DNA from: Solibacteraceae bacterium
Lineage (GTDB): Bacteria; Acidobacteriota; Terriglobia; Bryobacterales; Bryobacteraceae
Length of the DNA: 64,000 nt
Direction of reading: 5' to 3'
NCBI GenBank assembly: GCA_021324015.1
Contig: JAJPJX010000060.1
Coordinates: forward strand, 1 to 64,000
Positions 24,407 to 52,850 of this stretch are shown here, piece by piece (within the stretch, counting starts at the first letter, position 1; each line of letters opens with the position of its first letter). Made by a program: the position numbers and the translations under genes. Under the pieces are notes generated by a model. The model saw only the letters and a list, made by a program, of their open reading frames with translations. It was not told the DNA's origin and ran no database searches.

Positions 24407-24450
24407 GGGCCCGTAGCTCAGTTGGTTAGAGCGCTACCTTGACACGGTAG
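24407..24450 (+). tRNA. tRNA-Val(GAC), 5' half only, interrupted by an integrated element
   Basis: The sequence begins GGGCCCG (acceptor strand), TA, then the D arm GCTCAGTTGGTTAGAGC. The anticodon stem CTACC and GGTAG encloses the loop TTGACAC with anticodon GAC at 24441-24443. Everything up to position 43 is normal. After 24450 there is no variable loop, T arm or CGGGCCC acceptor strand. This is the host side of an integration site within the anticodon arm. The missing half, or a restored tRNA, should lie at the other end of the element, outside the window. Confidence 0.85.
24434..24450 (+). other. Probable attachment site core (attL) in the tRNA anticodon arm
   Basis: The tRNA match ends with the 3' side of the anticodon stem, the usual crossover place for tyrosine integrases that use the anticodon arm. 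The core (CTACCTTGACACGGTAG) should recur at the far end of the element. I did not find a second copy in the window by eye. Confidence 0.55.
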
Positions 24451-24509
24451 TTCCATCAATCACTTACAAGCATCCCTACTGAAAACACAAGACTTACGCC
24501 ACCAGAAAG

Positions 24510-24621
24510 TGGACTCCAGTTGGACGCCAGACCGTTACCGTGGCGAGGTTGGACTCCAACTGGACTCCGGAGTCCAGCACCAACCGCATCGCGGTAGCAC
24601 TCTTGGACTCCGGTGGACGCC
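24510..24621. repeat. Cluster of seven TGGAC(T/G)CC boxes, paired one helical turn apart
   Basis: Copies lie at 24510-24517, 24521-24528, 24550-24557, 24561-24568, 24604-24611 and 24614-24621, with one inverted copy at 24569-24576. Members of each direct pair start 11, 11 and 10 bases apart. The middle pair adds a perfect 16-base palindrome, TGGACTCCGGAGTCCA. This pattern suits cooperative binding of small DNA-binding dimers. Candidates are the protein encoded just downstream, or integrase/excisionase arm sites. Confidence 0.75.
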
Positions 24622-24774
24622 AGCCGATGGAATGCCACGTGCTCTCGCGTGCGCGCGAGCAGTTACCGGCTTCCCAAAACCCTATCCTTTCGAATCAGTA
24701 TGCGCCAAGGACAGGTTTTTCCGCTCTCTATATATGGACGAAGGGACGTGGCAAGATCGGAGGAGGAGGAGTAC

Positions 24775-25191
24775 GTGGCGACGAGGGCACTGACGATCCA
24801 GTTGAACGGCGCGGAGTGGCTGGAACTCCTGTCGCGGGCTGGCGCGGCCAGTTGCACGATCCCGGCGTACGTGAGGACTCTATGTGGCCTTCCAGCGTGG
24901 CTCCGGCGTGGCGAGGAGATGGCGGGTCGTACGTCCTCCGCTCGCCGGCCGACTTCCGCGCTTGAACGCAGGAGCGTCACCGTCGTTCTCACCGACCAGG
25001 AGTACGAGCGCGTGGCTGGCGAGGCGAGCCAGGCCGGTCAACGGCTGGCGCAGTTCGTCCGCACGCGATGTGGATTCCAGGTTCGCAACTCTTCGCTGCC
25101 AGGCACCGACGAACGCGAGGACGAGGCCGACGACGCATGGGAGAGGCTAAAGGGCCTCGGCTTGGAGCCGCAGGATTACTTCAAGGAGTGA
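24775..25191 (+). CDS. Protein with two tandem ribbon-helix-helix-like units
   Basis: A 138-residue protein from a GTG at 24775, chosen because a GGAGGAGGAGG tract (about 24759-24770) stands just before it. Residues 4-39 (RALTIQLNGAEWLELLSR..., ending YVRTLCG) and 66-101 (RSVTVVLTDQEYERVAGE..., ending FVRTRCG) align without gaps and each resembles a ribbon-helix-helix unit: strand, helix, turn, helix. Two units in one chain could form a dimer-like DNA binder. The C-terminus (110-138) is acidic. It is the only plus-strand gene in the left phage stretch and lies next to the repeat cluster, so it may be a repressor or excision control protein. A longer upstream extension is open but lacks these signals. 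Confidence 0.65.
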   Translation: MATRALTIQLNGAEWLELLSRAGAASCTIPAYVRTLCGLPAWLRRGEEMAGRTSSARRPTSALERRSVTVVLTDQEYERVAGEASQAGQRLAQFVRTRCGFQVRNSSLPGTDEREDEADDAWERLKGLGLEPQDYFKE

Positions 25192-25457
25192 GCTTCGCCC
25201 CGCCGCGACCGGAAGAATCGGTCGTGCAGGTCGCGGGCATACCGGCGCGCGAGCTTCTTATCGACCAGCCCGCTCCGGACGACATCGGTGAGCAGGACGC
25301 GATTTGCGAGGCCCGCGCGGTCGCCCGCCTCGATCAGCCCGTGGCACTCGTCGCACGCCAGCCAATCTCCCTGCGACACGCTATTGTACTGGTCGAGAAA
25401 CGTGTCGGCGGGATATAGCCACGCCGGAGGGTGCGAGGAGCAGAAGTCGCAGATCAT
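25176..25457 (-). CDS. Small phage zinc-binding protein
   Basis: A 93-residue protein starting MICDFCSSHPPAWLYPADTF. Pairs CDFC and CDEC with about 30 residues between them suggest one zinc site. The C-terminus is basic (KKLARRYARDLHDRFFRSRR). It is the last gene of the leftward run and its 3' end overlaps the convergent gene by 16 bases. Its ATG overlaps the stop of the gene upstream. Function unknown. Confidence 0.65.
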   Translation of the reverse strand: MICDFCSSHPPAWLYPADTFLDQYNSVSQGDWLACDECHGLIEAGDRAGLANRVLLTDVVRSGLVDKKLARRYARDLHDRFFRSRRGEAHSLK

Positions 25458-25744
25458 GACGCCTTGCTTCTGGCGTCGAGCACGTTGAGCAGCGCCTGCA
25501 ACGATGGCGCGACCTGGAACGTACCGGCGCAGAGGAGATCCCACAGCCACGCCGCCTCGTGGCTTACGCCCATGCCGAACGCGCAACGATTCAGGGCGTC
25601 CCGCTCGGCCCACACTTCGAGGTGCGGTTCTGGCCCGTCGATCTCGGGCGGGGTGAGCGAGTATCGCAGGAGGCCGACGCTCCGGAGTTCATCCAGGATG
25701 GCGACCACGCGCCTCCTGCCTTCGAGCACCTTGGGGTCGATCAT
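25454..25744 (-). CDS. Hypothetical phage protein
   Basis: A product of 96 residues starting MIDPKVLEGRRRVVAILDEL. No family is recognised. It is predicted mostly helical, without Cys pairs or membrane segments. Start and stop are joined to both neighbours by ATGA overlaps, which support this start against longer in-frame alternatives. Confidence 0.6.
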   Translation of the reverse strand: MIDPKVLEGRRRVVAILDELRSVGLLRYSLTPPEIDGPEPHLEVWAERDALNRCAFGMGVSHEAAWLWDLLCAGTFQVAPSLQALLNVLDARSKAS

Positions 25745-26079
25745 CAGTTCGTCCTCCGCGGCTTCGGCCGCTTCCCATCTCGCAGCCAGTCCACGTTCTC
25801 CTGCTCGGCGGTTGGGTCGCCCTTGCACGTCGTCATCAGGTCGTGCTGCTTGCCCATCATCGCGTCGGCGTACGCGATCACTTCAGACTCGTCGTCGGGT
25901 GTCGGCGGCAGGCGCCACTCCATGAAGAACGCAATGCGCGTTTGGTTGGTCTCCGGCACGTACGTCGCTGCTGGCCACACCCGGACCTGATTGCCGGAGG
26001 TGACCTCGCCCACGAGTCCTTCCAGCACCTCGTCCGCGCCCTCGATCTCCCGCTTTGGAAGCCTTGCCAGGATTTTCAT
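25744..26079 (-). CDS. Hypothetical phage protein
   Basis: A 111-residue protein starting MKILARLPKREIEGADEVLE, acidic in its middle and basic at the end (RDGKRPKPRRTN). No known domain is seen. It overlaps the next gene by ATGA and lies 43 bases after the gene upstream. Confidence 0.6.
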   Translation of the reverse strand: MKILARLPKREIEGADEVLEGLVGEVTSGNQVRVWPAATYVPETNQTRIAFFMEWRLPPTPDDESEVIAYADAMMGKQHDLMTTCKGDPTAEQENVDWLRDGKRPKPRRTN

Positions 26080-26122
26080 CGCCCAACCCCGAACCGTATG
26101 AACCTGTCGATCAGTTCTTTAC

Positions 26123-26476
26123 TCACGGCTGCGCATCGCTCTCCAGCCTGCGGAGGCGCTGCATCTTGGTGCCCGCGACCTCCGTGTTGACCTCACCGGC
26201 CATCGCGTTGAAGCGAGCTACCAGGCCACGGATGAGTCGGGCGAGTTCGTGCGGGTCTGACAAGACGATGCTGTGCTCCTCCCACTCGCCCTGCTTCACC
26301 CACGGGCCATGCTTCCGTACCCGCAACTCCCAATCGTTCCCCGGAGCAAGGAACAGTTGCACCCGCGACTCATTGTTCTCGTGGCAGAACATAACCGCAG
26401 GGAACCGCGCCGCGAGTTGCGCCGCCTTCTCCTTGCGCTCCTTCGTGCGCCGTTTCCGCTCCTCGGGTGTGATCAT
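26123..26476 (-). CDS. Hypothetical phage protein
   Basis: A 117-residue protein with a highly basic N-terminal helix (MITPEERKRRTKERKEKAAQ) followed by a beta-rich region (VQLFLAPGNDWELRVRKHG). No family is recognised. Its ATG overlaps the stop of the upstream gene, so the two are translated together. Confidence 0.6.
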   Translation of the reverse strand: MITPEERKRRTKERKEKAAQLAARFPAVMFCHENNESRVQLFLAPGNDWELRVRKHGPWVKQGEWEEHSIVLSDPHELARLIRGLVARFNAMAGEVNTEVAGTKMQRLRRLESDAQP

Positions 26477-26733
26477 CCCAATCGCTTCCTTCCGGCCGCG
26501 CGAGCACGCCGCCAGCGTTCCTTGGTTGCCCGGATGATGTTCGCGCGTCCGCGCGCACTCAGTCTGCGCTTGGGTTTCTCCTGCTGCGGCTGGGCCTGCT
26601 GTTCCACCTGTGGCGCGTTCCCGTTCAACTCGCGTTGGAGATCCGCGATCTGCTGGTCAATCCGTTTTCTCTGCAACTGGAAGCCGATGAGCGCGTGTTG
26701 CAGTATTTCTGTTCGATCAATCGTTGATTTCAT
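26473..26733 (-). CDS. Small basic phage protein, possible nucleic-acid binder
   Basis: An 86-residue protein: a predicted coiled coil (TEILQHALIGFQLQRKRIDQ), a Gln/Pro-rich linker, then a strongly basic tail containing KRRLSARGRANIIRATKERW. Such tails resemble DNA- or RNA-binding segments. It is ATGA-coupled at both ends. No family is assigned. Confidence 0.6.
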   Translation of the reverse strand: MKSTIDRTEILQHALIGFQLQRKRIDQQIADLQRELNGNAPQVEQQAQPQQEKPKRRLSARGRANIIRATKERWRRARAAGRKRLG

Positions 26734-27410
26734 TCTCGTTGTCCTTTCCGGTTGAGCACGTACATTTGGTCGTGCAGGCCGTGCCACTGGGGGATCGCCA
26801 CGACCTTTGCGATCTCCCAGTTCTTGTCCAACTCGTCGTGGAATCGCTCGTCGGCGGTGCAGCCGCCGTTCTCGCCCACATAGATCGCCGTGCCGCCCTC
26901 GTACCGCCGCAGGCAGTCGGTCGCAATGCCGTGGCTGTGCGGTGGCCAGCAGAGGAACAGCGTCCGGTCCTGGTGGAACCGGACCATGCCGGGACCGCCG
27001 CGCCGTACTTCGAAGTACGTTCCAGTCTCGACGGCCCACGCGACGACCTTCTTCCGGCCAGCCACGGGCGGGCGCGAGTCGTACGCCACGATATCCGCTC
27101 CAGCCTCCGCAGCGAGACGCGCCCAATAGCCGGTTCCCGCGCCGATCTCAACGATGGGCGAGTGCTCGACCAGCGTTCGGATGGCCTTCTCATCCGGAAC
27201 CGCCCAAGCCCAATGCGCGGTCGCATAGTCGCGCGCCGCAAACTCCGCGATGCAGAACGCGCCGACCGCTGCCTCCTCCGGGCACGGGAGCGGGATGCCC
27301 CACGCCTTCAGAGTGGCGAGGCTGGCCGCGCTCTTGGCGCGTCCGACCATGAGGTCGTGCGGTAACTCGCGCCAGAGCTTCAGGAGCACGTTCTCAAACT
27401 TCCGTTTCAT
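26730..27410 (-). CDS. Class I SAM-dependent methyltransferase-like protein
   Basis: A 226-residue protein with the cofactor-binding motif IVEIGAGTGYWARLAAEAGA and an acidic residue at the end of the next strand (VAYDSRP). No NPPY- or PCQ-type catalytic motif is seen, so DNA modification is not indicated; the target could be a small molecule, RNA or protein. The start MKRKFENVLL at 27410 overlaps the end of the upstream HTH gene. Confidence 0.75.
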   Translation of the reverse strand: MKRKFENVLLKLWRELPHDLMVGRAKSAASLATLKAWGIPLPCPEEAAVGAFCIAEFAARDYATAHWAWAVPDEKAIRTLVEHSPIVEIGAGTGYWARLAAEAGADIVAYDSRPPVAGRKKVVAWAVETGTYFEVRRGGPGMVRFHQDRTLFLCWPPHSHGIATDCLRRYEGGTAIYVGENGGCTADERFHDELDKNWEIAKVVAIPQWHGLHDQMYVLNRKGQRE

Positions 27411-27705
27411 CCTTCTCTTCCAACTGAACGTATGCAGCCAGGCGCCAATGCGCAAGCGGCGCGCGGAAGTACTCCGCGAGGTGCTCCGTCCTGTGGTCGC
27501 GGGCGGCAATCTTCGCCAGCACCGCCCGATGTTGCAGGCTCGGTGCGGTTTCTCCGGCCTCCCACCGGATCACGCAGATCCGGTTGGGGGTGATGGGGAT
27601 TCCCATCTTCGCCGCCACCTTGGTGATTTCGGTTGCGAGGTCCTCCTGGCCCCATCGCATCTTCGCGCGCAGTTCGACAACCGCCCTGCGGAGACCTCTG
27701 TGCAT
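27394..27705 (-). CDS. XRE-like helix-turn-helix protein
   Basis: A product of 103 residues starting MHRGLRRAVVELRAKMRWGQ. The helices around WGQEDLATEI, ITPNRICVIRWEAGETAP and the following segment look like an XRE/Cro domain, with RICVIRWEAGE as recognition helix and turn. It may regulate phage genes. It overlaps the methyltransferase-like gene by 17 bases. Confidence 0.7.
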   Translation of the reverse strand: MHRGLRRAVVELRAKMRWGQEDLATEITKVAAKMGIPITPNRICVIRWEAGETAPSLQHRAVLAKIAARDHRTEHLAEYFRAPLAHWRLAAYVQLEEKDETEV

Positions 27706-27722
27706 CGCATCTGTTGTCCGCT

Positions 27723-28253
27723 TCAAGCCGCAACTCGACCGCCTTCCTTGTTGGCGTGCCAGGCGCGGAGATACGCATCGGCCTCCGCTGTGGTCATGCC
27801 CTTTTGTCGTGCATACCGGCGCACCCGTTGGCACCGGCTGGCGCGTCCTGCGACGAGTCCGCACACGTATTGCCTGCTGGCCCCGCTTTTGGGCGGTACG
27901 ATTTCGCGCCCGCACACTTGGCACGGGAAGGACGGGCGCGGGGGGAGGTATCGCTTGGGTTCCCGTTCACCGCTGATCCATGCGTAGAGGCACGCGCCGC
28001 GCACCAGGATTGTCACCCGCCGGCCAGCACGACCGGCAGCGGTGAACAGGGAAGACTTCATACTCGACGTGACCTGATCTCCAGCGAACGAAATCCGCAA
28101 CGCCTCGTCTTCGTGCAAGAGCGCGAGGCGGCGCACGACAGCATCCCAATAGCCTTTATCGACGTTGGGTGGCGCGGGCGGCGGGATCTCCAACCGCAGG
28201 ACAGCGCATCCTTCTGGTTCAGGCGCGCGTGCCAACTGCGGTCCCGTTCCCAT
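27723..28253 (-). CDS. Zinc-ribbon phage protein, paralogue A
   Basis: A 176-residue protein with three parts. The N-terminal part contains DKGYWDAVVRRLALL; the middle is beta-rich (VTILVRGACLYAWISG); the C-terminal part has CQVCGREIVPPKSG, then QYVCGLVAGRASRCQRVRRY. Two Cys pairs suggest a zinc ribbon followed by a basic helix. It is colinear with the protein encoded at 30255-30755. No named family is recognised; a nucleic-acid-binding role is plausible. The start at 28253 overlaps the upstream gene. Confidence 0.7.
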   Translation of the reverse strand: MGTGPQLARAPEPEGCAVLRLEIPPPAPPNVDKGYWDAVVRRLALLHEDEALRISFAGDQVTSSMKSSLFTAAGRAGRRVTILVRGACLYAWISGEREPKRYLPPRPSFPCQVCGREIVPPKSGASRQYVCGLVAGRASRCQRVRRYARQKGMTTAEADAYLRAWHANKEGGRVAA

Positions 28254-29022
28254 TGAGGCTGGCCTTTCTCCAAAGCGTCTGCTGCCGCCCGATGCCCTGC
28301 GAGTCCTTAACCACCTCGCCACGCTCGAATAGCGTGGCCATCGCTTGCGCCACGGAGGATCGAACCCTCTGGCGTTCGGGTGGGTCGATCTGCGCGCTGC
28401 CAGTCATCCTCTCCACGACGTCGTTGACGGTGAACTGGTCATCGAACGTCTGCGTGGCCGCGAGGACGAGTTGCCTGGTGACCTGGACCCGATCCGTTAT
28501 CTGTTGCGGAGGCTCCGGAGGTCGCGGCGGCGTAGGCGGTTGCGCGACGACCGGCGCGAGAACGGGCAGGATGCCGCGGAGTGCTTCTTCCGTGGCGTCG
28601 TCCGCGAAGGGCAGCAGCGTCTTGAGCATCTGCGCCTTGCGTTCGTGCACGGCGGCTTCAGCCAGGAGTCTCTCCTGCGTGGCCTCCTCTCCTGCAATTG
28701 CTGCTTCGATGCGCGCCTTGAGCGGGTGCTCCTGGTCGGTTGGCGCGGGCGGCGCGGGTTCCGTTACGGCTGCGGGTGGGGCCGGAGCCGGTTTTTGATC
28801 CAACGGCATACGATGTACCTCCTCTGTTGCTGGCGGCGTGGACGATTCCTTTAACGCGCGCCGCAGTTCTCTCAATTCCTGGAGCGGGGTCCGGTGATTG
28901 TCCGGTCCGCTGCGGGTGAACTTGTTCCCGTTTGGAAGCAAGTAGACCAAGTGATTGTCCTCGTACACCCGCACCGCACCGCAGTTTTTCAAGACGCGAT
29001 TGAGCGTGATCGTCGGGTTCAT
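28219..29022 (-). CDS. Phage protein with HicA-like N-terminal domain and C-terminal winged-helix-like region
   Basis: A 267-residue protein. Residues 1-60 (MNPTITLNRVLKNCGAVRVY, then HLVYLLPNGNKFTRSG) resemble the double-stranded-RNA-binding fold of HicA toxins, including a His and the PNG turn before the last strand. A Pro/Ala-rich linker (about 70-100) follows, then a helical region, a second Pro-rich linker, and a C-terminal part that may be a winged helix (FDDQFTVNDVVERMTGSAQI). A HicB antitoxin is not visible beside it, so a toxin role is not implied. It is ATGA-coupled to the gene upstream. Confidence 0.6.
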   Translation of the reverse strand: MNPTITLNRVLKNCGAVRVYEDNHLVYLLPNGNKFTRSGPDNHRTPLQELRELRRALKESSTPPATEEVHRMPLDQKPAPAPPAAVTEPAPPAPTDQEHPLKARIEAAIAGEEATQERLLAEAAVHERKAQMLKTLLPFADDATEEALRGILPVLAPVVAQPPTPPRPPEPPQQITDRVQVTRQLVLAATQTFDDQFTVNDVVERMTGSAQIDPPERQRVRSSVAQAMATLFERGEVVKDSQGIGRQQTLWRKASLNGNGTAVGTRA

Positions 29023-29186
29023 CACACGCACTCCACGCAGATCGAGTCCTCGACGGAGTTGCAGCACGGGCCGTACATCCGGCCGCACTTATCGCAGCCG
29101 CACAGATCGTACACGTCCTTGACCGGCTCTCCGCAGACCTCGCAGATCGCTTCGCCCTTCTTCGGTTCCGCTGCCGTCGTTGCCAT
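29022..29186 (-). CDS. Small Cys-rich zinc-binding phage protein
   Basis: A 54-residue protein with CEVCGEPV, CGCDKCG, CC and CVEC: nine Cys in 54 residues, enough for two zinc sites in a RING- or ribbon-like arrangement. It is ATGA-coupled to both neighbours. No family is assigned. Confidence 0.65.
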   Translation of the reverse strand: MATTAAEPKKGEAICEVCGEPVKDVYDLCGCDKCGRMYGPCCNSVEDSICVECV

Positions 29187-29446
29187 CACTCGCCCCCCTT
29201 GAGCGGGATCTCGATGGGCGTCACCATGCCGGATGGGTCCGTCCCGAAGCGGAAGAACCGCTGTTGCTCGTTTGGCTCGTCCAGGAACTCGATCTCGATC
29301 ATGTGCAGATGGTGCGCCGCCAGTTTCTCGCAATGCTTCTCTGCCAGTGTCGGAAGCACCGTGTCGAGGTCCATCGGGCTTACCTCGATCCGATCCTCGA
29401 AGAGAGCCGTCCTGCCGACGTACCCGCGAATAGCAAGGCGAATCAT
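29186..29446 (-). CDS. Hypothetical phage protein
   Basis: An 86-residue protein starting MIRLAIRGYVGRTALFEDRI. It is predicted alpha/beta, without Cys pairs. It may be related in style to small acidic phage accessory proteins, but no family is recognised. It overlaps both neighbours by 4 bases. Confidence 0.6.
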   Translation of the reverse strand: MIRLAIRGYVGRTALFEDRIEVSPMDLDTVLPTLAEKHCEKLAAHHLHMIEIEFLDEPNEQQRFFRFGTDPSGMVTPIEIPLKGGE

Positions 29447-29649
29447 ACGTCCTTCTCACTGGCGCGCAGGATGTTGCTGCGCCCGTTCGGTCGGATCAGG
29501 AAGTAGTTGTTCTGCGCCGCCTCGCGCGGATGGCGCCGGATCGCCCACGCGAGCTTCCGGAAGCGCAACGGCGCGGACGCGCGCACGCGCAGCGGACGAC
29601 CCAGAACAAGGATCGGAGCGTTGTTGGGTTCCTGGTCGAGGTACTTCAT
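29443..29649 (-). CDS. Small basic phage protein
   Basis: A 68-residue protein starting MKYLDQEPNNAPILVLGRPL with many Arg residues (RVRASAPLRFRKLAWAIRRH). It overlaps the next gene by 4 bases and its ATG overlaps the stop of the gene upstream. No domain is recognised. Confidence 0.55.
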   Translation of the reverse strand: MKYLDQEPNNAPILVLGRPLRVRASAPLRFRKLAWAIRRHPREAAQNNYFLIRPNGRSNILRASEKDV

Positions 29650-29882
29650 CGTCGTTTCAACTCCGCGCGAGCTATAGCGGGCCAGTGCTTCGGCGGCGGC
29701 GATGCCCGCTCGACCAGCAATCGCACTTCGAAGTTCAACTTCTCGCCGGCCAGCCACAGGTCACAGAGGCATTGGCAGATGATACAGCCGCCCTTGACGC
29801 CGCCTCGCCCGCCGTTCCTGGCCGGATCGAAGGACGGATGCTTGGGGCACTTCAGGTTGGCGCGCACCCGGAGTTTCAGCAT
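29646..29882 (-). CDS. Small zinc-binding phage protein
   Basis: A 78-residue protein with CPKHPSFDPARNGGRGG, then CIICQCLCDLW. The CxxH and CxxC pairs in the first half suggest one zinc site resembling the CHC2-type start of primases, but it is too short for a primase. It overlaps the upstream gene by 7 bases. Confidence 0.6.
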   Translation of the reverse strand: MLKLRVRANLKCPKHPSFDPARNGGRGGVKGGCIICQCLCDLWLAGEKLNFEVRLLVERASPPPKHWPAIARAELKRR

Positions 29883-30202
29883 GGGCGGTCCTCCCGGTGG
29901 TCGAGCCAGTATCGGAACGCCGCCTGCGCCGCCTGCCGCAACGTCATTCCGGGCGGGTCGTGCTCGTCGCCGCCGTAGCAGGAGCAACGGTGCTGCTGGT
30001 GTGCCAGACTGCCGGTTACCAGGCGCATGTGGCATTCGAAGTGGTAGGGCACGTCGGGCACCGGCCCGTCGCCCACGTGCGGGATCGTGCAGCCACGGTC
30101 GCCAGCCCCGATAGGCTCTTGGCAGAAGCCGCACGACTGGCCGACCGGCGTCGGGATGCGCGTCTCTTCCGGGTCCACAAGGGCGATGCCGAACCACTTC
30201 AT
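29876..30202 (-). CDS. Zinc-ribbon phage protein
   Basis: A product of 108 residues starting MKWFGIALVDPEETRIPTPV, followed by CGFCQEPIGAGDRGC and later HFECHMRL and CSCYGG. The Cys/His spacing suggests a treble-clef or RING-like zinc site. Its ATG at 30202 overlaps the stop of an 18-codon frame upstream. Function unknown. Confidence 0.6.
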   Translation of the reverse strand: MKWFGIALVDPEETRIPTPVGQSCGFCQEPIGAGDRGCTIPHVGDGPVPDVPYHFECHMRLVTGSLAHQQHRCSCYGGDEHDPPGMTLRQAAQAAFRYWLDHREDRPC

Positions 30203-30258
30203 CACGAGCGCGCCGCCTCCAACGTCGATTGGAAGTCCACGATCCTGGTCGGCGTCAT
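30202..30258 (-). CDS. Possible 18-residue coupled micro-ORF
   Basis: An ATG at 30258 overlaps the stop of the upstream gene (ATGA), and its own TGA at 30202 overlaps the next ATG (ATGA). The product would be MTPTRIVDFQSTLEAARS. The frame exactly bridges its neighbours, so it could carry ribosomes between them or be a small protein. Chance is a real alternative for so short a frame. Confidence 0.35.
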   Translation of the reverse strand: MTPTRIVDFQSTLEAARS

Positions 30259-30755
30259 GCGAGCGCGTCCTTTCGCAGCCACCGCGCCCTCGCCTCTTCA
30301 ATCGATATGCCGTGCTCTCGGGCGTAGCGCCGAATCTTCTGGCATCTGCTCTTTCGCCCTTCGACGCCGCCGCAGACGAACTGCTTGGATGTGCCAGAGA
30401 CCGGATCGATCGACTTGCCGCAGACCCCACACTTGATCGCGGGTCGGGATGATGGAATAGCGGTGCTCGGGCGGGTCCCAATCTTCCATAGGTACACGAC
30501 CGCGCCGCTCACCTTGACGCTGACGCGAAGACCGGCGCGTGCCGCCGCCGCATGGATCGAGGATCGAACGCCCCGTGGAGCTTGACTACTTCGGAAGACC
30601 AGCATCAAAACCTGATCGGGACGGAGCAGGAGGAGGTGTCTGACTGAGGAGTCCCAATAACCCTTCGAGATTCGCGGTGTGAAGTCCGCTTTCATCTCAG
30701 ACCGGAGAACGATGTGTTCTTCCGGCTCTGAGCCGTGCTTCGATTGACGTTTCAC
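30255..30755 (-). CDS. Zinc-ribbon phage protein, paralogue B
   Basis: A 166-residue protein, colinear with the one at 27723-28253. Shared features are KGYWDSSVRHLLLL at the N-terminus, a beta-rich middle (VSVKVSGAVVYLWKIG) and a zinc ribbon CGVCGKSIDPVSG, then QFVCGGVEGRKSRCQKIRRY. It is the first gene of the left phage stretch; nothing on its strand lies directly upstream, so it needs its own promoter, which I cannot identify. ATG at 30755 is used; an internal ATG near MKADFTPR is possible. Confidence 0.7.
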   Translation of the reverse strand: MKRQSKHGSEPEEHIVLRSEMKADFTPRISKGYWDSSVRHLLLLRPDQVLMLVFRSSQAPRGVRSSIHAAAARAGLRVSVKVSGAVVYLWKIGTRPSTAIPSSRPAIKCGVCGKSIDPVSGTSKQFVCGGVEGRKSRCQKIRRYAREHGISIEEARARWLRKDALA

Positions 30756-31080
30756 ATATCATGGCGACCCGATCTATCGCCGCAGTAGCCAATGCGCGTT
30801 GCCCGTCCCGCCAGCCGTCGTATTGGTGGCGGTCACGAGCAGACCGGCGTAGCGAAGTTCGACAGTCCGATTTTAGGAGGGCGCGCGGGAAATTTCCGGC
30901 GAGCGAGCGGGGTTACCACTTTGAAAATGCCTATTTCGGTTGGGCGGCAGGAGGTCGTAATCGGCTGAATCGGGGCTGCTTACGTAAGCGGGGAGAGGAA
31001 GGTGCCTGCGGCGGCTCGTACTCGCTCAATAAGTCCGGTATCGGGAGTACAAAGGGCCGCATTTTCGATCCGAAGTCAGG
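30756..31080. other. Gene-poor junction region
   Basis: A plus-strand frame (30761-31132) is open but its product is Arg/Gly/Ser-rich and shows no domain. This stretch marks the change from phage-style genes to host-style genes and probably contains decayed sequence. No RNA gene is seen. Confidence 0.45.
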
Positions 31081-31251
31081 GTGCAGGAAGAGGCGCCTGC
31101 GGATCTCGGCCGGGTTGACGAAAAGGAACTAGAACTCGCCACGATGCTGGTGAACGCGCAGCGAGCGACGTTCGACGACACGAAGCTGAAGGACAAGCTC
31201 AAGCAGCGAGTGCCCGAACTCGTCGAGAATCGGGCGGCGGCGCCCCGTTAG
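31081..31251 (+). pseudogene. C-terminal remnant of a Ku DNA-end-binding protein
   Basis: The plus-strand frame ending TAG at 31251 encodes VQEEAPADLGRVDEKELELA, then TMLVNAQRATFDDTKLKDKL, then KQRVPELVENRAAAPR. The order V-x-E-K-E-L-x-L-A, F-D, K-D and E-L-V/I-E matches the helical end of bacterial Ku, the partner of LigD in end joining. Nothing upstream in this or other frames matches the Ku core barrel, so only the tail remains. Confidence 0.5.
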
Positions 31252-31340
31252 CCGAATGGCCGGCGGCGCCAATGAGCAACGAATGGCCGCTCCAGATCCA
31301 GCCCGTGAGACGGCAATGCGCGCGGCTACGCCGCCTATTG

Positions 31341-31562
31341 TTAGCTTTTCGCGGGGCTCCGCTTCGAGACTGTGAGCACTAACCCGATCAGCGCCAAGAC
31401 CGCGCCCACACCGATGGCCAGCGGGCCAGTGTTGTCTTGCATCCCGATTTCACGCGCCAGCCGTTGTCCAAAGCTGTTCATCACGTTGATTCCCCAGAGG
31501 GCAATCCCAATCCCGACTACAAGGAGGACCAATCCGCCTGCTGTCTTTCCGCTCATCTTCAA
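31341..31562 (-). CDS. DUF3185-like small membrane protein
   Basis: A 73-residue protein with two hydrophobic helices (TAGGLVLLVVGIGIALWGI and IGVGAVLALIGLVLTV) separated by a polar segment with FGQRLAREIG. This matches the two-helix DUF3185 pattern. Its start overlaps the stop of the upstream membrane-protein gene, so the two form a pair. Function unknown. Confidence 0.7.
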   Translation of the reverse strand: MKMSGKTAGGLVLLVVGIGIALWGINVMNSFGQRLAREIGMQDNTGPLAIGVGAVLALIGLVLTVSKRSPAKS

Positions 31563-31834
31563 CTCCTATCAATTGAGTCGTCAACTGCTCCCTGTGTCTG
31601 CTTTCCTGAATCGATCCGTGTTAACACAAAGCCGACCAACGCGCCGAGGATGGCACCGCCGACAATATAGTTGAAGGACTGTTCAGCCACCCCTTTTAGG
31701 ATCGTGTCGAGGCCTCGGAGATTCCCTCCTCGCGTAATGACAGTCTCAAACGGGAGTTGCCCGAGCAGCGGAACCGACGGCCTGAACCAATAGGCGACTA
31801 CTGCGCCCAATATGGTGCTTAAAACAGTTCGCAT
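31559..31834 (-). CDS. Small two-helix membrane protein
   Basis: A 91-residue protein: an N-terminal hydrophobic helix (MRTVLSTILGAVVAYWF), a polar loop of about 35 residues, a second helix (IVGGAILGALVGFVLT) and a polar tail. It is coupled to the DUF3185-like gene by ATGA. No family is assigned. Confidence 0.65.
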   Translation of the reverse strand: MRTVLSTILGAVVAYWFRPSVPLLGQLPFETVITRGGNLRGLDTILKGVAEQSFNYIVGGAILGALVGFVLTRIDSGKQTQGAVDDSIDRS

Positions 31835-31917
31835 GGTCTTTATGCCGGATCACGGCAGCCGCAATCATTTCCCGGTGATGATCACGCCAGCGTGTCGTGT
31901 CAGACTGCCCCGATGTG

Positions 31918-34344
31918 CTATTGCACATCAGCCACCTTCCCGTCCTGGAAAATCACCTTCATGTCTTTATAGATGTAGGTAATTTTCGGGCCGAGATTAA
32001 CGATCCGCTCAGGCCGTCCGAGGAGATCCTCAACCTCTTTCGTGCTTTGGCCCAAAGAGATGGTCTTCGTCGATGCGGCTTGAGCCTCAGCATCCGACGC
32101 AATAACTTCCGCTATCATCGGCTTGAGTTCCGACAAGCTCATTCGGGGGAGGGACGCCTTCTCGAACTTGAACGCCAAATAGGCCTTGTAGCGCGTCTGC
32201 GTGGTCCTCCCGCCACGCTCACTGACCGGGAACGTATCGTAAGAAACGAAGAATAGTCCGACATGATCATCGCCGATATTCGTCTTCCAGAGGTAGACTT
32301 TTTCACCCGCCTTAAAAGGACGACTCGTCTTCTTGTTTTGAAGAAACGCCACGGCACCCTTCGGCGCAAGAATGCGCCCCCCCTCGACAGTGTTTTGGGT
32401 GAAAGTACCATCGGAGGCTAAATCGCCGGTGATGCCATCTTTTTTGAGGACGAATACGGTCCCTGGGTCTGTTATACGAAGCCGGTCCGTGGCTAAACGG
32501 GTGACCTTCCAGGACGACTCGATATCGTCCTTAAGCTTCCGCTTCCATCCGGCAGTATTGACGTCCGCGTCCTGTTCCCTCTCAACCGGTGCTTTATCAT
32601 CCTGTAACTTGGCTGCCACCTCCGGTGACGACTTCCCTGTGACACCGCCATTGGTTCTCTCAGCGGCTGTCGCCGTCACGGCTGTAGCCCCATGTTCCTT
32701 TTGATCGGGCACTCCGGACTTGGTGGCAGTGCCGTTGTCCTGAGAATCAGTGGTTGCCGAATTGGTATCCGCTTTCGCCCCGTCCTTCACACGAAAATCC
32801 CAGGCCAACGCACCGTAACCTGTCCACTCCTCACCTTTCTTCATGAACCGTGCCATCTCATCGCTGCTCCATTGAGCTTTGAGAGGCACGTTCTCGGTAT
32901 AGGCTCCGGCCGGTGACTTCGTAAACACTCCGATCGCGTACTCACCGGGCACGAGGGGCGCCTTGGGCCGCAATATGAACGAGTTATTCGGCCCTTTTTC
33001 AACGTCAGCCGCGATCGTCTTTTGTTCGACAGACAACTCCGTCCGTTCAACCCCGGGCTGCGTGTCGAACTTCTTCTGCTTTTTCGTTTTCATTGTGACC
33101 TTCCGCGACGTGACGATTCGGACAGCATCTGTGCCCATGACATCCAACTGGATCAAGACCGGCTGGACATCCGTGATGTTGGCATCGCTTGGTATGTACT
33201 GATTTAGAGGCAGCACGAACTCCACAGGGCCTTGCTTGATCTCCACGACGGCTTTCGAGTCGCGCAGGAATTCAAACTCGAAGCCCCGGATCTCCGGGTT
33301 GCGCTTTAGGAAGGGAATCATCGTAAGGACCGCAACAGGATACGCGAAATAGCCGCCAAGCGGGATGCCGCTTGTCGCAATGCGGGCACCGATGTTTGCG
33401 GCCATGGTTGTCCCGACTTGCGTTAAGGCAATGTCCTTTGCAGCGTCTTTCGCATCCGCCGCCTTACTCTTGGAGAAGGCGTGCTGCTGCGGCCTTGGCG
33501 CGAGAGTAATCTGCCACGTGTCACCCTGCCGAGCGATAACTTTGCCGAGGCTGTTCTGAAAGCGCAGCAGTTCTGCGAGATCTTCCCTGTCTGATTCTTT
33601 TGCGATGTTGAAAGTGCCTCTCCTGATCCCATTAGCTCCTGCAACCTTGAGCTGCACCTCGCCCGAGAGTGCCCCGGCTGAAACCGACGCCGGGGTGAAT
33701 TCAACCTGGGCACCGGCGTCCGTTGCCGCAGACAGCAGCATGCCCGCCCCCTGCTCGCGCAGTTCAACGCGGCCACTGTTCGCCGCACCGGAGCCAGATT
33801 GGAAGGCAATAGCGCCAGAGTAGGTGCCCAACGCGCTCTTCTGGAATACCATCCTGATCGCCGTTGGTTCGCCCTCGACGGTCATCTGCCCCGCCCACGT
33901 ACCGCTCAGTGCCGCCGCCGGACGAGTCGGCTCCGGCTGCGGCTTCTGAGGCTCCGGAGGCTTGACATCGGCGACAGCCATGCCGGACTTCTCCATCATC
34001 GCGCGGATGACCGATGCAGGTACCTTCTTGTTCTTCAACTCGATGATTGAGTCGGTGTCGAGTTGGAATTCCGCCTTCTCAGCAGATTTGATCTTGGCGC
34101 ATATCAGCGCCTCATCGAGCCCGGCATCGACCAATTTGATGACCGCCTGGTTATTGAGTACGTCAGGCTTGGGGGCCGTGGGCGCTGACTTCTTCGTAAC
34201 CGCCTTCTTGGTGGGCGGCGAGGTCTTCTGGCCCGTCGCCTGGGTCTGCGAAAGTGCAGTGGTTGACAACATCCAGAAAAGGGCAACCGCAATAACTGCG
34301 GCGAGGACCGATGACATTCGATTCGCAAAGTTGCGAGTGGACAT
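31918..34344 (-). CDS. Large exported protein with acidobacterial repeat-type motif
   Basis: An 808-residue protein. The signal peptide (MSSVLAAVIAVALFWMLSTTALSQ) and an AAGGAG box before the ATG at 34344 set the start. A Lys/Pro-rich segment is followed by a helical motif at about 75-130 (AVIKLVDAGLDEALICAKIK, then IIELKNKKVPASVIRAMM) found in many exported Acidobacteriota proteins. Middle regions are beta-rich. The C-terminal 50 residues (ISLGQSTKEVEDLLGRPERI) resemble a SmpA/BamE-type fold. Possibly periplasmic or outer-membrane associated; no activity can be named. Confidence 0.7.
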   Translation of the reverse strand: MSTRNFANRMSSVLAAVIAVALFWMLSTTALSQTQATGQKTSPPTKKAVTKKSAPTAPKPDVLNNQAVIKLVDAGLDEALICAKIKSAEKAEFQLDTDSIIELKNKKVPASVIRAMMEKSGMAVADVKPPEPQKPQPEPTRPAAALSGTWAGQMTVEGEPTAIRMVFQKSALGTYSGAIAFQSGSGAANSGRVELREQGAGMLLSAATDAGAQVEFTPASVSAGALSGEVQLKVAGANGIRRGTFNIAKESDREDLAELLRFQNSLGKVIARQGDTWQITLAPRPQQHAFSKSKAADAKDAAKDIALTQVGTTMAANIGARIATSGIPLGGYFAYPVAVLTMIPFLKRNPEIRGFEFEFLRDSKAVVEIKQGPVEFVLPLNQYIPSDANITDVQPVLIQLDVMGTDAVRIVTSRKVTMKTKKQKKFDTQPGVERTELSVEQKTIAADVEKGPNNSFILRPKAPLVPGEYAIGVFTKSPAGAYTENVPLKAQWSSDEMARFMKKGEEWTGYGALAWDFRVKDGAKADTNSATTDSQDNGTATKSGVPDQKEHGATAVTATAAERTNGGVTGKSSPEVAAKLQDDKAPVEREQDADVNTAGWKRKLKDDIESSWKVTRLATDRLRITDPGTVFVLKKDGITGDLASDGTFTQNTVEGGRILAPKGAVAFLQNKKTSRPFKAGEKVYLWKTNIGDDHVGLFFVSYDTFPVSERGGRTTQTRYKAYLAFKFEKASLPRMSLSELKPMIAEVIASDAEAQAASTKTISLGQSTKEVEDLLGRPERIVNLGPKITYIYKDMKVIFQDGKVADVQ

Positions 34345-34391
34345 GAGCGTGAACTCCTTCCTTCGTGCGATCCAGATGGGCGTTGGAATCC

Positions 34392-35411
34392 TCATGAATA
34401 GCCTGCCCGAACGGCCAAGCATTCAGTCTTCAAATCGTTGAGCGCGCGGCTGTACCATGCCAAGCACTCCAATCCGAGGCCGAAATACAACAGCCACCGG
34501 ATTTGAACCATGTGCGTGAAGAGATTCATGTAGCGCGCCGGCTCCAGATTATCGAATAGGTGGCTAGTCATCGGAATTGACGCGAGCACCGCGGCCAGGA
34601 GAATCAACCATAGGGTTCTGACCGTGACATAGAATGCTCCGGGCGTGGATACCGCCCATTTTTGCTCCGTCAATAACGCCAGCACGGCACCGTGTCGGCC
34701 GGCGCGCAATGCCGCCTGTTGAATCGCGACAAAATGGTACGGGACGCAGAAGAAGATGATTGCCAACGGAAGAGTGTACCGGATTCCCTTCAGGTACGCG
34801 CCTTGAGCGGTGTACGCTTGGATGCGCATCTGAGTGATGGGCTGGTCGGGCAGGAAGAAGCAAAGAGCGGCGTATAGCGCGACAGCGGCCACTGTGACCG
34901 TAGTAATCGAGAGGGCGAGACCGCCCCGCCGCCCCACCGAGGCTGCGCGCCAGTCCAAGAACGCTGCGGCCAGGAACGTCGCGGCGGTCCAAAGGAAAAC
35001 GAGTGGAGCCAGCTTGAGCGCCTCGCCACCGAACTTGTCAAATGCGTACGACACCTCTGTTATGAGTCCAACCACGTAAAGCAGGGAGTACAGGACACAG
35101 GCGGCGATAACATGTCTTGCGTGGCCCGCGAACAGCCAGCCCAACCGCCCTCCTATACCCAAAAGCAGAGACAGATCAGACGGCCGAACGGAGCGCATCA
35201 GTGCCTTGTCGAATCGCAACACGCTCACCGCTGAACTCAGCCGTTGGACCTCTTCCCAACAGAAATCGCAGTCGATCAAATGAGCTTCGAACAGGCGTCG
35301 GTCACGTTCCGTTAGATCGGCGAAGCAATAATCCGTCAGGAACCGGTTCAACGCCGGGTCCACACAGCGCGGGTCCTGCGGAACCAGTTCGCCTTTCATC
35401 TCTGTCTTCAT
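34392..35411 (-). CDS. Membrane anti-sigma factor with zinc-binding N-terminus
   Basis: A 339-residue protein. Residues 20-55 carry the zinc anti-sigma signature H-x3-C-x2-C (His44, Cys48, Cys51 in FEAHLIDCDFCWEEV). At least five hydrophobic segments follow (about 85-330), for example HVIAACVLYSLLYVVGLI. It would hold the sigma factor encoded upstream at the membrane. The ATG overlaps the sigma gene stop (ATGA at 35408-35411), as usual for such pairs. The many membrane segments are more than in simple single-span anti-sigma factors. Confidence 0.85.
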   Translation of the reverse strand: MKTEMKGELVPQDPRCVDPALNRFLTDYCFADLTERDRRLFEAHLIDCDFCWEEVQRLSSAVSVLRFDKALMRSVRPSDLSLLLGIGGRLGWLFAGHARHVIAACVLYSLLYVVGLITEVSYAFDKFGGEALKLAPLVFLWTAATFLAAAFLDWRAASVGRRGGLALSITTVTVAAVALYAALCFFLPDQPITQMRIQAYTAQGAYLKGIRYTLPLAIIFFCVPYHFVAIQQAALRAGRHGAVLALLTEQKWAVSTPGAFYVTVRTLWLILLAAVLASIPMTSHLFDNLEPARYMNLFTHMVQIRWLLYFGLGLECLAWYSRALNDLKTECLAVRAGYS

Positions 35412-35989
35412 ACTCTGTCGAGCGACCCTGGACTTTTCTTCGCGTGTCGCCTAAAGATCTCGTAGAACGTCGCCTTCGCTTCGGAGACCACTCTTCCCAC
35501 GCTGCCGGGGGACCACCGCAACTTCGCACCGACCTCTTCGATGGTCAGGCCGAGCATTTTATGCAGGATCAGCACGGTGCGCTGTCGCGGCGGCATCTGA
35601 TCGAGGATCTCGCGTACCGTAAGTACTAGATCTTGGGTATGCCAAGTGGCGACGAGGCCAACTTTTTGCGGATAACTGACGAGATCGCCATCGGCATCGG
35701 CTGCGAGGACGACCTTCCCGGTCGAGCGCATGTAATCGATGATCTTTCCCCGCAGGATCGTCTCCAGCCATCTGCCAAGAGAGCATTCCCCTCGAAACAG
35801 TCCGCGCTGAATCTGGCTGAGGCTGGCGGTAAGTGCCTCTTGGACAATATCTTCCGCATCCTGGGCGGGCACACCGGCGGACTGTGACAGCCAAAGGAGG
35901 CGCGGACGGTACCGGTCGCTAAAGGCGGTCCCCGCCGCGGCGTCGCCTTCAACCAGGCCCGAGAGTAACGCCGAATCGTCCGCTTTCAC
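35408..35989 (-). CDS. ECF-type RNA polymerase sigma factor
   Basis: A 193-residue sigma factor from a GTG at 35989. Region 2 has FSDRYRPRLLWLSQSAG, DAEDIVQEALTASLSQI and GRWLETILRGKIIDYMRS. Region 4 has LDQMPPRQRTVLILHKMLGL, then TIEEVGAKLRWSPGSVGRVV as helix-turn-helix. The frame stays open upstream to 36271 but that extension lacks sigma features. It is coupled to the membrane anti-sigma gene, so it is probably released by an envelope signal. The divergent M23 gene is a possible target. Confidence 0.88.
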   Translation of the reverse strand: MKADDSALLSGLVEGDAAAGTAFSDRYRPRLLWLSQSAGVPAQDAEDIVQEALTASLSQIQRGLFRGECSLGRWLETILRGKIIDYMRSTGKVVLAADADGDLVSYPQKVGLVATWHTQDLVLTVREILDQMPPRQRTVLILHKMLGLTIEEVGAKLRWSPGSVGRVVSEAKATFYEIFRRHAKKSPGSLDRV

Positions 35990-36245
35990 CGCCGTCTCGC
36001 TGCTTCGTGGTTTTGCTTGAAGCGCGAACAGTCTATCACATTGCGAACACAGGCGGTTGCTCAAAACAGAGAAAAATCCCTTGTCAGCCGAAAAAACTGG
36101 TGCGATGCTCCGACAAGAGTACTCAGAACTGGGAGTTTGGTTGGATATGTCGTCCGGGAAGGGCGAGAAGTCGAAGGTGTGCGTGTCGTTGGTGCCGCGC
36201 CTCTGAGTGCGCGTGGAGCATTGTGGACGAGTAGGAGCGCAGAAG

Positions 36246-38510
36246 ATGAGAATATCTCGATTTGTGCACATCCCATTGGCCGTTGTACTTTTCTCTCCGG
36301 CCGCGCTGGCATTAAGCGACGTGGCAAATCAAAGGGTCACTAAACAAGCACCTCCGCAGAGCGGGTGCGTACTGCCGCCCGCGGAATCGACGTTCGTGCC
36401 TTCTGACGGGACCGTCTACCTATACTTTGAGGCGACTGAATCCAACAGCGACTACGTGACGAACGACTGGGTAGCGCCCGATGGGACCGTCCTCAACGGA
36501 GGTAGCTGGTCCTCATCTTCCGGCAGGTATTGCTTTACCGGGGCAGCCCTGGGGATCTCCAACACGCCGACCAACCGTTTCGGCCAGTGGCAAGCCCGAG
36601 TTCTCAACGGTGGTTCGGTAGTGTTTTCCGTTCCATTCACGATCAACAATCCGGCGAATCCGAGCGGCGGGGCTCCGAATATTACGGACGCGAATCCGAA
36701 ATCGATTCCCGTCGGTGCGGATACGACGATCACACTGACCGGCACTGGCTTTCAGCCAGGGTTCAGCGCGAAGCTCTGGGTTGGGAGTACGCCTTGGCCC
36801 ATCAATTCCGGTTCTCAGGCGCTTTATGACAGCCCGACGCAGGTTCGGTTGGTCGTCCGTGTGGGCCAGCCGAACGATCCGGCTACCTCCTTCGGCCTGC
36901 AAGTCATAAACCCGGACGGCCAACCGAGCAATACCTATACTGGCCTCACGGCGATGCAGAGTTCAACTGGAGGTGGAGGAAGTGCTCCAGCTTTTAGATT
37001 GCCGTTGCCCGCAGGTAAGGATTGGTTGTTGAGCGTGGAGACCGGGACGGCAACCAGCACTAGCGACTGCAAGAGCGGTATGGGAGGCCGATACTATGGT
37101 GGCGGATATGACTGCCTCCACTCAGGAAAGTCTAAGTACTCGCTGGACTTCCTTGACAATAACCGCCAAGACGGCGAACTGACGGGCCGCGGAGATGTGA
37201 GTATTCTGGCGGCGGCTGACGGCACAGTTTCCGAGGTCGTCATAAATCCCGGCAAGAACGAGGGATGCAACTGCTTCGGAAATTACGTCGTGATTGATCA
37301 CGGAAATGGCTTTACAAGTTGGTACGGGCACTTAAAAGATGGATCAATTCCATCAGGACTGGTCCGCGGCCAACCGATCCACGCAGGGCAACAAGTCGGC
37401 GTCATGGGTACATCAGGAGATAGCACGGGAATTCACATTCACTTCATGGTCCGATACAACGGCGAAGGCGACGCCGCAAGTTCCGTGCTCGATCAGGTAA
37501 TGGTCGAGGGAAGGAGGATGATCGATTACCGCGTCGGCAATTCCAGTCAGCCGATATACTATCCCTCATCGAATGGCAACCCGATCACCGGTGGCGGTGG
37601 CGCATATCCGGAATCCGCTCACCCATACACCAACAACTTCGACAACACCTGGACCTACGTTATGAGTGGCAATCCGGCCGCAATTGCTGTGACTTTCGAT
37701 TTGCAGACGCAGGTCGAGCAGAACTACGATTACATCTACATCATGGATGGAAATGGCAACAGCGTTGCCGGAAGCCCGTTCACGGGGACTGCCCTCGCCG
37801 GCCGGACCATCACCGTCCCTGGCAGCACTGTCAAGATCCGCCTCACATCCGACTTTAGCGTGACGTACTTCGGGTTCCGCGTAACGAACGTGGCGGCGAC
37901 ATCGGGCGGCGGGAACGGCGGCAACGGCGGGTTGTATCAACCCGGCGATGGAGCAAGCGACCCGAACCCGTGGGTGCAAGCCTTCTACAGGAATCAATTC
38001 AACACGTACTCCGTCTTGCCGACCGACAATCCGGTCAGCCCCTCGGGCCCTGGTTGCATTCAATATTTCAAGGCGACGGACACGCAGCAGAAGACAGAAG
38101 TCCTCATGCAGCGGAATTGCACGGGTACTGTCTACCAGATCTACGGCGGGATGTGGAACAAGTACATCTCGGACGGGCGTCTTGGAGGGCCGACCGGGGC
38201 AATCGGGTATCCCACGAACGATCGCCAGAACGGACGCAGTAGCATTGACGGACAAGCATTTGAGTGGCAGGAGTTTCAGACCACCGGCGGCGCCAACACC
38301 CGGATCGTGCAGTACAACGGCACGGCGTACGCCGTCTTCGCTGGCATCCTCAGCTATTGGGCTAGCCAGGGTTACGAGAACAGCAAGATCGGCATTCCGA
38401 CATCCGAAGAGTTTGACTGGGGAAGCAACGGATGCAAGCGCCAGAATTTTCAAAACGGATGGTACGTGTGGTGGACGCCGACTCCTGGAGCAAGCTGCAA
38501 CGGAAATTAA
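36246..38510 (+). CDS. Secreted M23 peptidase with IPT/TIG, CUB-like and LGFP-like domains
   Basis: A 754-residue exported protein. The signal peptide is MRISRFVHIPLAVVLFSPAALAL; AGGAG precedes the ATG at 36246. An IPT/TIG-like domain lies at about 145-230. The M23 peptidase domain lies at about 250-420, with zinc ligands probably His292 and Asp301 (HSGKSKYSLDF) and His399 of the HIH motif (397-399), plus YGHL at 361-364; this wide His-Asp spacing recalls beta-lytic (M23A) enzymes. A CUB/PPC-like beta domain lies at 460-550. The end (580-754) has LGFP-like motifs (GPTGAIGYPTN, KIGIPTSEEF) that bind cell-wall polymers. Likely cuts peptidoglycan cross-links or extracellular proteins. Confidence 0.85.
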   Translation: MRISRFVHIPLAVVLFSPAALALSDVANQRVTKQAPPQSGCVLPPAESTFVPSDGTVYLYFEATESNSDYVTNDWVAPDGTVLNGGSWSSSSGRYCFTGAALGISNTPTNRFGQWQARVLNGGSVVFSVPFTINNPANPSGGAPNITDANPKSIPVGADTTITLTGTGFQPGFSAKLWVGSTPWPINSGSQALYDSPTQVRLVVRVGQPNDPATSFGLQVINPDGQPSNTYTGLTAMQSSTGGGGSAPAFRLPLPAGKDWLLSVETGTATSTSDCKSGMGGRYYGGGYDCLHSGKSKYSLDFLDNNRQDGELTGRGDVSILAAADGTVSEVVINPGKNEGCNCFGNYVVIDHGNGFTSWYGHLKDGSIPSGLVRGQPIHAGQQVGVMGTSGDSTGIHIHFMVRYNGEGDAASSVLDQVMVEGRRMIDYRVGNSSQPIYYPSSNGNPITGGGGAYPESAHPYTNNFDNTWTYVMSGNPAAIAVTFDLQTQVEQNYDYIYIMDGNGNSVAGSPFTGTALAGRTITVPGSTVKIRLTSDFSVTYFGFRVTNVAATSGGGNGGNGGLYQPGDGASDPNPWVQAFYRNQFNTYSVLPTDNPVSPSGPGCIQYFKATDTQQKTEVLMQRNCTGTVYQIYGGMWNKYISDGRLGGPTGAIGYPTNDRQNGRSSIDGQAFEWQEFQTTGGANTRIVQYNGTAYAVFAGILSYWASQGYENSKIGIPTSEEFDWGSNGCKRQNFQNGWYVWWTPTPGASCNGN

Positions 38511-38618
38511 TAGAGGCCCAATTGCTGTCTAGATAGGATGGGCGACCTTTACGGTACGGTTGTGCTGATGAAGTGAATGTGCTATATAAGACTCTCATTC
38601 TCCAACGGAGCTAACATT

Positions 38619-39569: not shown

Positions 39570-39570
39570 A

Positions 39571-39731: not shown

Positions 39732-39759
39732 CGTGGTGCGACATTCCCGTATTGCTATC

Positions 39760-41178: not shown

Positions 41179-41222
41179 AAAGCAAGTGCCCTAACTTCAA
41201 CGATTTACGCGCGGCGCGCGCC

Positions 41223-48934: not shown

Positions 48935-48936
48935 GG

Positions 48937-51669: not shown

Positions 51670-51679
51670 ACGAGCCTCC

Positions 51680-52375: not shown

Positions 52376-52391
52376 AGTTCTCCTTTTCCGT

Positions 52392-52835: not shown

Positions 52836-52850
52836 GCTGTTCGTCTCCTG

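Follow-up and report, generated by a model that had tools for sequence, protein, structure and literature searches.

The DNA analysed here, referred to as the window, is a stretch of 64,000 nucleotides corresponding to positions 1-64000 of contig C2 in an 8.2-Mb genome. At the anticodon loop TTGACAC, the sequence turns from a host tRNA-Val gene to foreign DNA, a prophage (E1) with genes for terminase, portal, tape-measure and baseplate-like proteins. The relevant features are listed below.

24407..24438, + strand: 5' part of the host tRNA-Val(GAC), severed at the anticodon loop (3' half at G000:C94:21026)
24439..24445, + strand: TTGACAC, anticodon loop and inferred crossover region
24446..64000, no strand assigned: in-window part of prophage E1, which extends to C2:92785
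24455..24497, + strand: P' segment ATCAATCACTTACA...AAAACACAAGACTTA, which separates the core from the boxes; conserved and common to related arms
24510..24528, + strand: arm pair 1, TGGACTCC + TGGACGCC (starts 24510 and 24521, 11 bp apart)
24550..24568, + strand: arm pair 2, TGGACTCC + TGGACTCC (starts 24550 and 24561, 11 bp apart), 40 bp past pair 1
24569..24576, - strand: inverted box TGGACTCC, completing a 16-bp palindrome (24561-24576); beyond the four conserved slots
24604..24621, + strand: third pair, TGGACTCC + TGGACGCC (starts 24604 and 24614, 10 bp apart); beyond the four conserved slots
24728..24737, + strand: CTATATATGG motif, promoter-like by eye only
24775..25191, + strand: 138-aa tandem ribbon-helix-helix (RHH) protein whose second domain resembles NikA (below the Pfam cut-off)
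39760..41178, - strand: tyrosine integrase, 472 aa from the first ATG; R, K, HxxR, H and Y conserved, by eye in the alignment

Seven boxes were found within 112 bp (24510-24621), of which five are exact TGGACTCC and two are the one-mismatch form TGGACGCC. The initial annotation had listed seven copies at these places; all seven boxes are there, and the word copy is exact for five. Its start-to-start spacings of 11, 11 and 10 bp and its 16-bp palindrome were read in the sequence as claimed, and the helical phasing and the position at a prophage end beside the attachment site were likewise borne out. When the window was dinucleotide-shuffled, the densest 112 bp held one TGGAC[TG]CC (187/200 shuffles) or two (13/200), compared with the seven boxes of the real array. 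A search of the window and 20 shuffles for any four 8-mers in an array-like arrangement, with at most one mismatch, returned the array as the sole match within the window and gave none in 20/20 shuffles. No match was found among 50,697 phage records when 24480-24780 was searched with blastn. Just upstream of the tRNA-Val gene (~24310-24387) there is a repeat of the end of an FG-GAP/VCBS-like gene (...GRLVVIQEGKGVVKSEVFPKRMV; named by eye, ~22816-22884).

Tandem prophages and the interrupted tRNA-Val gene

A second related prophage (E2) starts at C2:92785 with the same core as E1, and CCTTGACACG is common to the crossover region at 24439 and this E1/E2 junction. Contig C2 stops within E2. The pattern of the tRNA-Val 3' half had a single match, at C94:21026. 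This match follows phage genes resembling those of E1 and E3 (see below) and a TGGACCCC box, which is the allele of the E2 left arm. We infer that C94:1-21026 is the remainder of E2, placed by this reasoning rather than by assembly. The two host tRNA halves, when joined, give tRNA-Val(GAC) with ARAGORN, which called no tRNA at the E1 left junction; integration within the tRNA-Val gene (5' part at 24407, 3' half at C94:21026) had taken place without rebuilding the tRNA.

A third prophage, E3, sits in a tRNA-Phe gene (C19), with the tRNA intact at one end and a 3'-half copy at the other. Directly outside the E3 right end, at the tRNA-Phe 3'-half copy, lies a different integrase of 368 aa (C19:90494-91600), which was absent from the matches of the E1-type integrase family search. 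Searching the same genome for TGGACTCC-NNN-TGGACTCC gave five places, namely both ends of E1, both ends of E3 (C19) and one in C136 beside a tRNA-Ala. The E2 left arm holds TGGACCCC-type pairs, 52 bp apart instead of 40. In E1 and E3, boxes were present just within each of the two ends, and in E2 at the left end and the inferred right end, as short repeated element-side sites that flank the core in both arms. With one mismatch allowed, the pair pattern was found at 14 places in the genome versus three for the reversed control, and five of the 14 were on contigs with no other visible sign of an element. The motif search proposed by the initial annotation, at the other end of the element and in related phages, was positive for both E1 ends and for many relatives.

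The CTATATATGG motif recurs, facing inward, at the other E1 end (C2:92524) and at both E3 ends (C19:23885 and 90100). Similar inward-facing sequences that combine a hairpin/T-run with CTATATATGG were seen at the ends of E1 (window 24681-24737; C2 ~92480-92560) and of E3 (C19 ~23840-23900 and ~90090-90150). A terminator and a promoter beside the E1 array were considered, and a consensus scan found neither. For the E1 hairpin (24672-24725), folding was not stronger than in shuffled sequences (z -0.45), and the matching E3 hairpins are stronger than shuffles (z -5.6 and -3.5).

A complete tRNA-Val(GAC) is located inside E1 (C2:91787-91863), and an identical one in the inferred part of E2 (C94:18626-18702). 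Thirteen places in the genome match this tRNA, and only C2:91787 and C94:18626, both in prophage DNA, are tRNA-Val(GAC). At the other 11, ARAGORN called no tRNA-Val (one is the 5' part, one is without a call and the rest are other tRNAs). The disrupted isotype was therefore found to be carried by the element, with an intact host copy absent from an assembly estimated to be 98.8% complete, in which very different tRNA copies could escape. E1 disrupts tRNA-Val(GAC) and carries a replacement tRNA, and by inference E2 does the same. For Fionnbharth and cluster L mycobacteriophages, the available part of PMC10865867 describes a short core in a tRNA gene, a host tRNA that is not rebuilt and a same-isotype tRNA carried by the phage; in these phages of tRNA-dependent lysogeny, the core is also flanked by paired putative arm-type sites. 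E1 and E2 share the tRNA core, the tRNA that is not rebuilt, the same-isotype tRNA and the paired putative arm sites, and from this fit in sequence they are candidates for tRNA-dependent lysogeny. They differ from the mycobacteriophages in that the relatives of the host are Acidobacteriota and that two tandem prophages carry identical tRNA-Val(GAC), that of E2 by inference. Unlike in tRNA-dependent lysogeny, E3 and most of the bounded mini-elements described below show an intact tRNA at one end. In the same part of PMC10865867, its authors thought such lysogeny plausible outside Actinobacteria, with Lj965, a prophage of Lactobacillus johnsonii, as one possible example; E1 and E2 would be a further candidate outside that phylum.

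Arms and integrases in related genomes

To search related genomes, a sequence-only P' arm model (R1) was made from 16 arms. It matched 62 places in 39/101 genomes, own genome included, and 12 of the 62 were training arms. We examined 51 places, leaving out eight with E above 1e-5 and three as short loci. A tRNA-like sequence, judged by a simple motif, abuts 45 of the 51 arms. Four TGGAC cores fit at 17 or more of 20 positions in 44 arms; under a slot search that gave small bonuses to spacings of 40 and 11, the pair-to-pair distance was 39-41 in 36 of these 44 and the second spacing was 11 in 40. The box geometry (11-29-11) is largely conserved, and its conserved core in the relatives consists of two pairs about 40 bp apart, represented here by 24510/24521 and 24550/24561.

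The last three box bases differ between elements and match within an arm, with TCC/GCC, CCC, CCT, CCA, CTA/CTG, CTC and GCA among the alleles. For box bases 6-8, within-arm agreement was 0.77; shuffles that preserve the slots, a control that ignores shared ancestry, gave 0.48, with a maximum of 0.54 among 2000. A four-8-mer scan of the relatives that was blind to box sequence revealed arrays with other boxes, such as TGGACCTC in G034 and TGGACCTA/CTG in G063; it returned unrelated repeats at two to three mismatches and missed some arms that were found later. In G001 and G003, a tRNA-Val gene adjoins the array on its inner side. Several P' arms (e.g., E2, G001 and G034) have a GGCCTCTWCC-like sequence between the box pairs, which by eye resembles a core half-site and is possibly an extra core-type site. 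The stretch inward of the 51 arms held a full-length integrase ORF in 10 cases, only fragments in 10 and none in 31, although 12 of these 31 arms are unbounded with less than 6 kb of inward sequence each.

The E1 integrase gene lies ~15 kb from the att end, and across E1-E3 it is located 13-17 kb inside the arm, a distance that is unusual to our knowledge. The three tyrosine integrases are open frames of 471-478 aa and are 50-60% identical. Relatives were found on five genome contigs and two viral contigs and, at E <= 1e-60, in 14/101 genomes (own included); named records with a related integrase were Solibacter, Bryobacteraceae and other Acidobacteriota MAGs. For nine of the 21 collected integrases, an array was not found on the available DNA. 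The N-domain was predicted to fold as beta-beta-beta-alpha, with pLDDT blocks of 77-88 except for the 41-50 loop at 49, and the model of the whole integrase was poor (mean pLDDT 52, 7 sequences). With Foldseek, the top solved structure was Tn1549 Int and lambda Int came further down; the TM to the top matches was low, at ~0.2 by query length. Pfam Arm-DNA-bind_3 was below cut-off in all three integrases (E 0.0005-0.039).

Box classes were then compared with integrase sequences in the 12 elements that have both an integrase and an arm, eight of which are of one class. N-domain identity was 0.63 within the same box class versus 0.51 between classes, whereas the catalytic domain gave 0.64 versus 0.63. 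Label permutation reached these values in 132/5000 cases for the N-domain, 1597/5000 for the catalytic domain and 38/5000 for the N-domain minus the catalytic domain; the result was weaker with two near-duplicates removed (n=10), at 271/5000, 3190/5000 and 79/5000, respectively. Across the 12 elements, the box sequence covaries with the integrase N-domain and not with the catalytic domain. The G024 integrase was also used as a blind predictor of box class and was uninformative, as the sole arm match was on another contig.

Candidate readers of the boxes

We propose, with a probability of about 0.87, that the array forms the attachment site's P' arm and that its boxes are putative arm-type sites recognised by the N-terminal domain of the tyrosine integrase that the element itself encodes (39760-41178), a reading drawn from sequence comparison. 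The integrase is the best candidate reader because its N-domain covaries with the boxes and because the RHH gene is found beside so few arms. Box spacing alone does not indicate an integrase, since direct repeats one helical turn apart have also been described for the sites of recombination directionality factors (RDFs) in the accessible part of PMC7498355. The integrase would bind the boxes within an intasome: protomers would place their catalytic domains on the core in the tRNA anticodon loop, and in each of the two arms their N-domains would contact the paired boxes, which are spaced by one helical turn. The phage ends would be folded into the intasome in this way, leading to insertion into or excision from the tRNA gene.

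The initial annotation had put forward two possible binding partners for the array, the RHH protein and the integrase. A tandem RHH-like gene next to the array is supported by the predicted fold, beta-alpha-alpha twice (mean pLDDT 77.5); the closest PDB folds, at E values of at least 0.064, were AvtR and chains of the F-plasmid relaxosome, which we take to be TraY. The boxes could be an operator or RDF-binding array of this protein (24775-25191), or sites of an unrecognised RDF, so that the arm is bent for excision or the RHH protein represses its own promoter. The gene lies directly inside the array and its homologues adjoin the arm in E2, G001, G003, G018, G009, G012 and G028. The near-palindromic box centre GGA-N-TCC would suit a dimer, and the helical-turn repeats known from RDF sites would fit as well (PMC7498355, available in part). 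However, the RHH gene was not linked to the array wherever it occurs: it was found beside 9/55 arms (the 51 examined and four read earlier), counted within 3 kb inward on stretches of which several are cut by contig ends, and it was found neither beside E3 nor beside the bounded mini-elements, which keep boxes. Boxes are also present at the far E1 end, 68 kb off, and the variants TGGACCTA, TGGACCCT and TGGACGCA are non-palindromic. We consider this explanation unlikely, and an RHH operator as the main function was downgraded on the tally of arms. With a box sequence that tracks the integrase N-domain, the RHH protein is less supported as main partner. Dimers on one DNA face are likewise only a suggestion of the initial annotation, and among the relatives the box variants show asymmetry over the final three bases.

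The integrase and the RHH protein could also share the arm, the former on the paired boxes and the latter between or beside them as an RDF where present. This is compatible with the integrase arm-site explanation rather than exclusive of it. RDF sites lie near arm sites in KplE1 and ICEMlSymR7A, according to the available parts of PMC2951348 and PMC11963761, but the RHH-bearing arms yielded no site peculiar to them, and we hold a shared arm to be possible at well below even odds. On the predicted fold and the tally, some of the elements may use the RHH protein as an RDF or regulator. Attachment-site arms usually also hold host-factor sites, so the array might consist of sites for host nucleoid proteins (IHF/HU/Fis-like), or it might be a functionless repeat. 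The box alleles are, however, element-specific and agree across slots and, in the elements read, across both arms, which is not expected of a host factor. We regard this last reading as highly improbable.

Under the integrase arm-site reading, the array is most likely a known and ordinary kind of part. In lambda and L5, short repeated arm sites on the element side are bound by the integrase N-domain. The same has been described for IntS of KplE1 and IntS of ICEMlSymR7A (PMC2951348 and PMC11963761, in the parts accessible). The boxes resemble these lambda-like arm sites in being short, repeated and placed next to the core on the side of the element. They differ in the largely conserved geometry of two pairs ~40 bp apart, in the many alleles within one family and in the distance of the integrase gene from the arm (13-17 kb in E1-E3). 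No description of these elements was found in the literature searched, a coverage outside which most subscription journals lie. The family would offer natural arm-site alleles paired with integrase N-domains, making arm specificity directly testable.

Small bounded elements without an integrase

A tRNA 3'-half copy was found within 6 kb of 14 of the 51 arms. This count leaves out G019:C380, a 333-bp "repeat" with nine mismatches, and the mini-element count also leaves out G043 (~0.8 kb), which was read by eye. In G043 (C46 ~71304-72115), two tRNA-Ala 3' halves enclose an MntA-like nucleotidyltransferase gene and another small ORF, and the stretch is in tandem with an element that has an integrase. 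With the family HMM, no integrase homologue was detected in 11 of the 14 bounded elements (below 6 kb, 1.0-5.6 kb), which have both att ends; the other three hold integrase fragments (G035:C7, G038:C43 and G040:C71). Among the matches listed for PF00589, none was inside the ten mini-elements of other genomes and none on C136.

Nine of the 11 integrase-less elements have a box within 330 bp of the far end, whereas G026 and G056 have none in this stretch before the P end. ARAGORN found an intact tRNA at the far end in nine of 11. Most of the bounded mini-elements (Ala, Pro, Arg, Phe and Gly) show an intact tRNA at one end and a 3'-half copy at the other. Unusual alleles can occur at both ends of one element: TGGACGCA in G064, and TGGACCC[TA] in G061, where the P boxes are inverted and the element encloses a second arm. 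The C136 and G019 mini-elements are without a clean second P' pair. Ten cargo proteins were scanned. They include HigB/Gp49 with an HTH protein (antitoxin candidate), DUF3800 in two elements, in G065 a protein containing Gp49 next to a deaminase and, in a fragment-bearing element, a TIR-like match below cut-off; none was a packaging or replication gene.

Three mini-elements of 1.5-2.3 kb, in three genera, have tRNA-Ala 3' halves as their boundaries and contain arm boxes, HigBA-like toxin-antitoxin genes and one further gene that varies (C136:15348-17724 in the own genome, G019:C257:4452-5984 and G027:C21). The HigBA DNA is 86-88% identical across the three genera. The host flank beside the element is 69% identical between G000 and G027, in an alignment that includes the P-arm edge. 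For a host GTPase, the protein identity between G000 and G019 is 50%, with no match in G027. The higher identity of HigBA favours recent movement of this mini-element. HigB homologues gave 23 matches in 16/101 genomes, and tRNA-Ala or arm signatures, the only ones sought, were beside three of the 23 loci, some of which are cut.

These observations, read from sequence, suggest that integrase-less cassettes move on a borrowed phage integrase. Decay of larger prophages after loss of the integrase is a live alternative, as three bounded elements hold integrase fragments. Mobility is also spoken against by the genomes with clean mini-elements, of which nine of 11 have no integrase relative at E <= 1e-60 (the two among the 14 that do being G000 and G019), and by the missing or irregular boxes of G026, G056, C136, G019 and G061 noted above. 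More generally, a family of phage integrases in Acidobacteriota, distinguished from one another by an arm-box "code", might mobilise cassettes of ~1-6 kb that have two attP arms and no integrase and whose cargo is toxin-antitoxin genes or other genes, an idea we consider plausible at slightly less than even odds. If true, such cassettes would parallel those of integrons on a phage basis, and the match between cassette and mobilising integrase would be set by the arm code. It would also provide a candidate system of very small cassettes on a borrowed phage integrase in a soil phylum, Acidobacteriota, whose viruses are little known (PMC11924767, available in part).

The mini-elements resemble CIMEs and ssrA islands in being att-bounded, lacking an integrase and sometimes forming tandem accretions, as far as the available parts of PMC5704250 and PMC3146451 describe these. 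Unlike them, they are 1.0-5.6 kb in size, keep arm-type boxes and share one toxin-antitoxin cassette across three genera. An enzyme acting in trans, as inferred for the mini-elements, is known from phage satellites and integron cassettes/CALIN (PMC11389934; PICMI, PMC10803314; both seen in part). Phage satellites are 7-20 kb and encode an integrase according to the accessible part of PMC13376191; the mini-elements are below this size and, unlike satellites, had no packaging or replication gene among the cargo proteins scanned. A 3.5-kb element in tRNA-Val was also noted in G003 (C808 ~6500-10150), with its own arm, a tRNA-Val, a seemingly frameshifted RHH gene and an integrase reduced to ~120 N-terminal residues.
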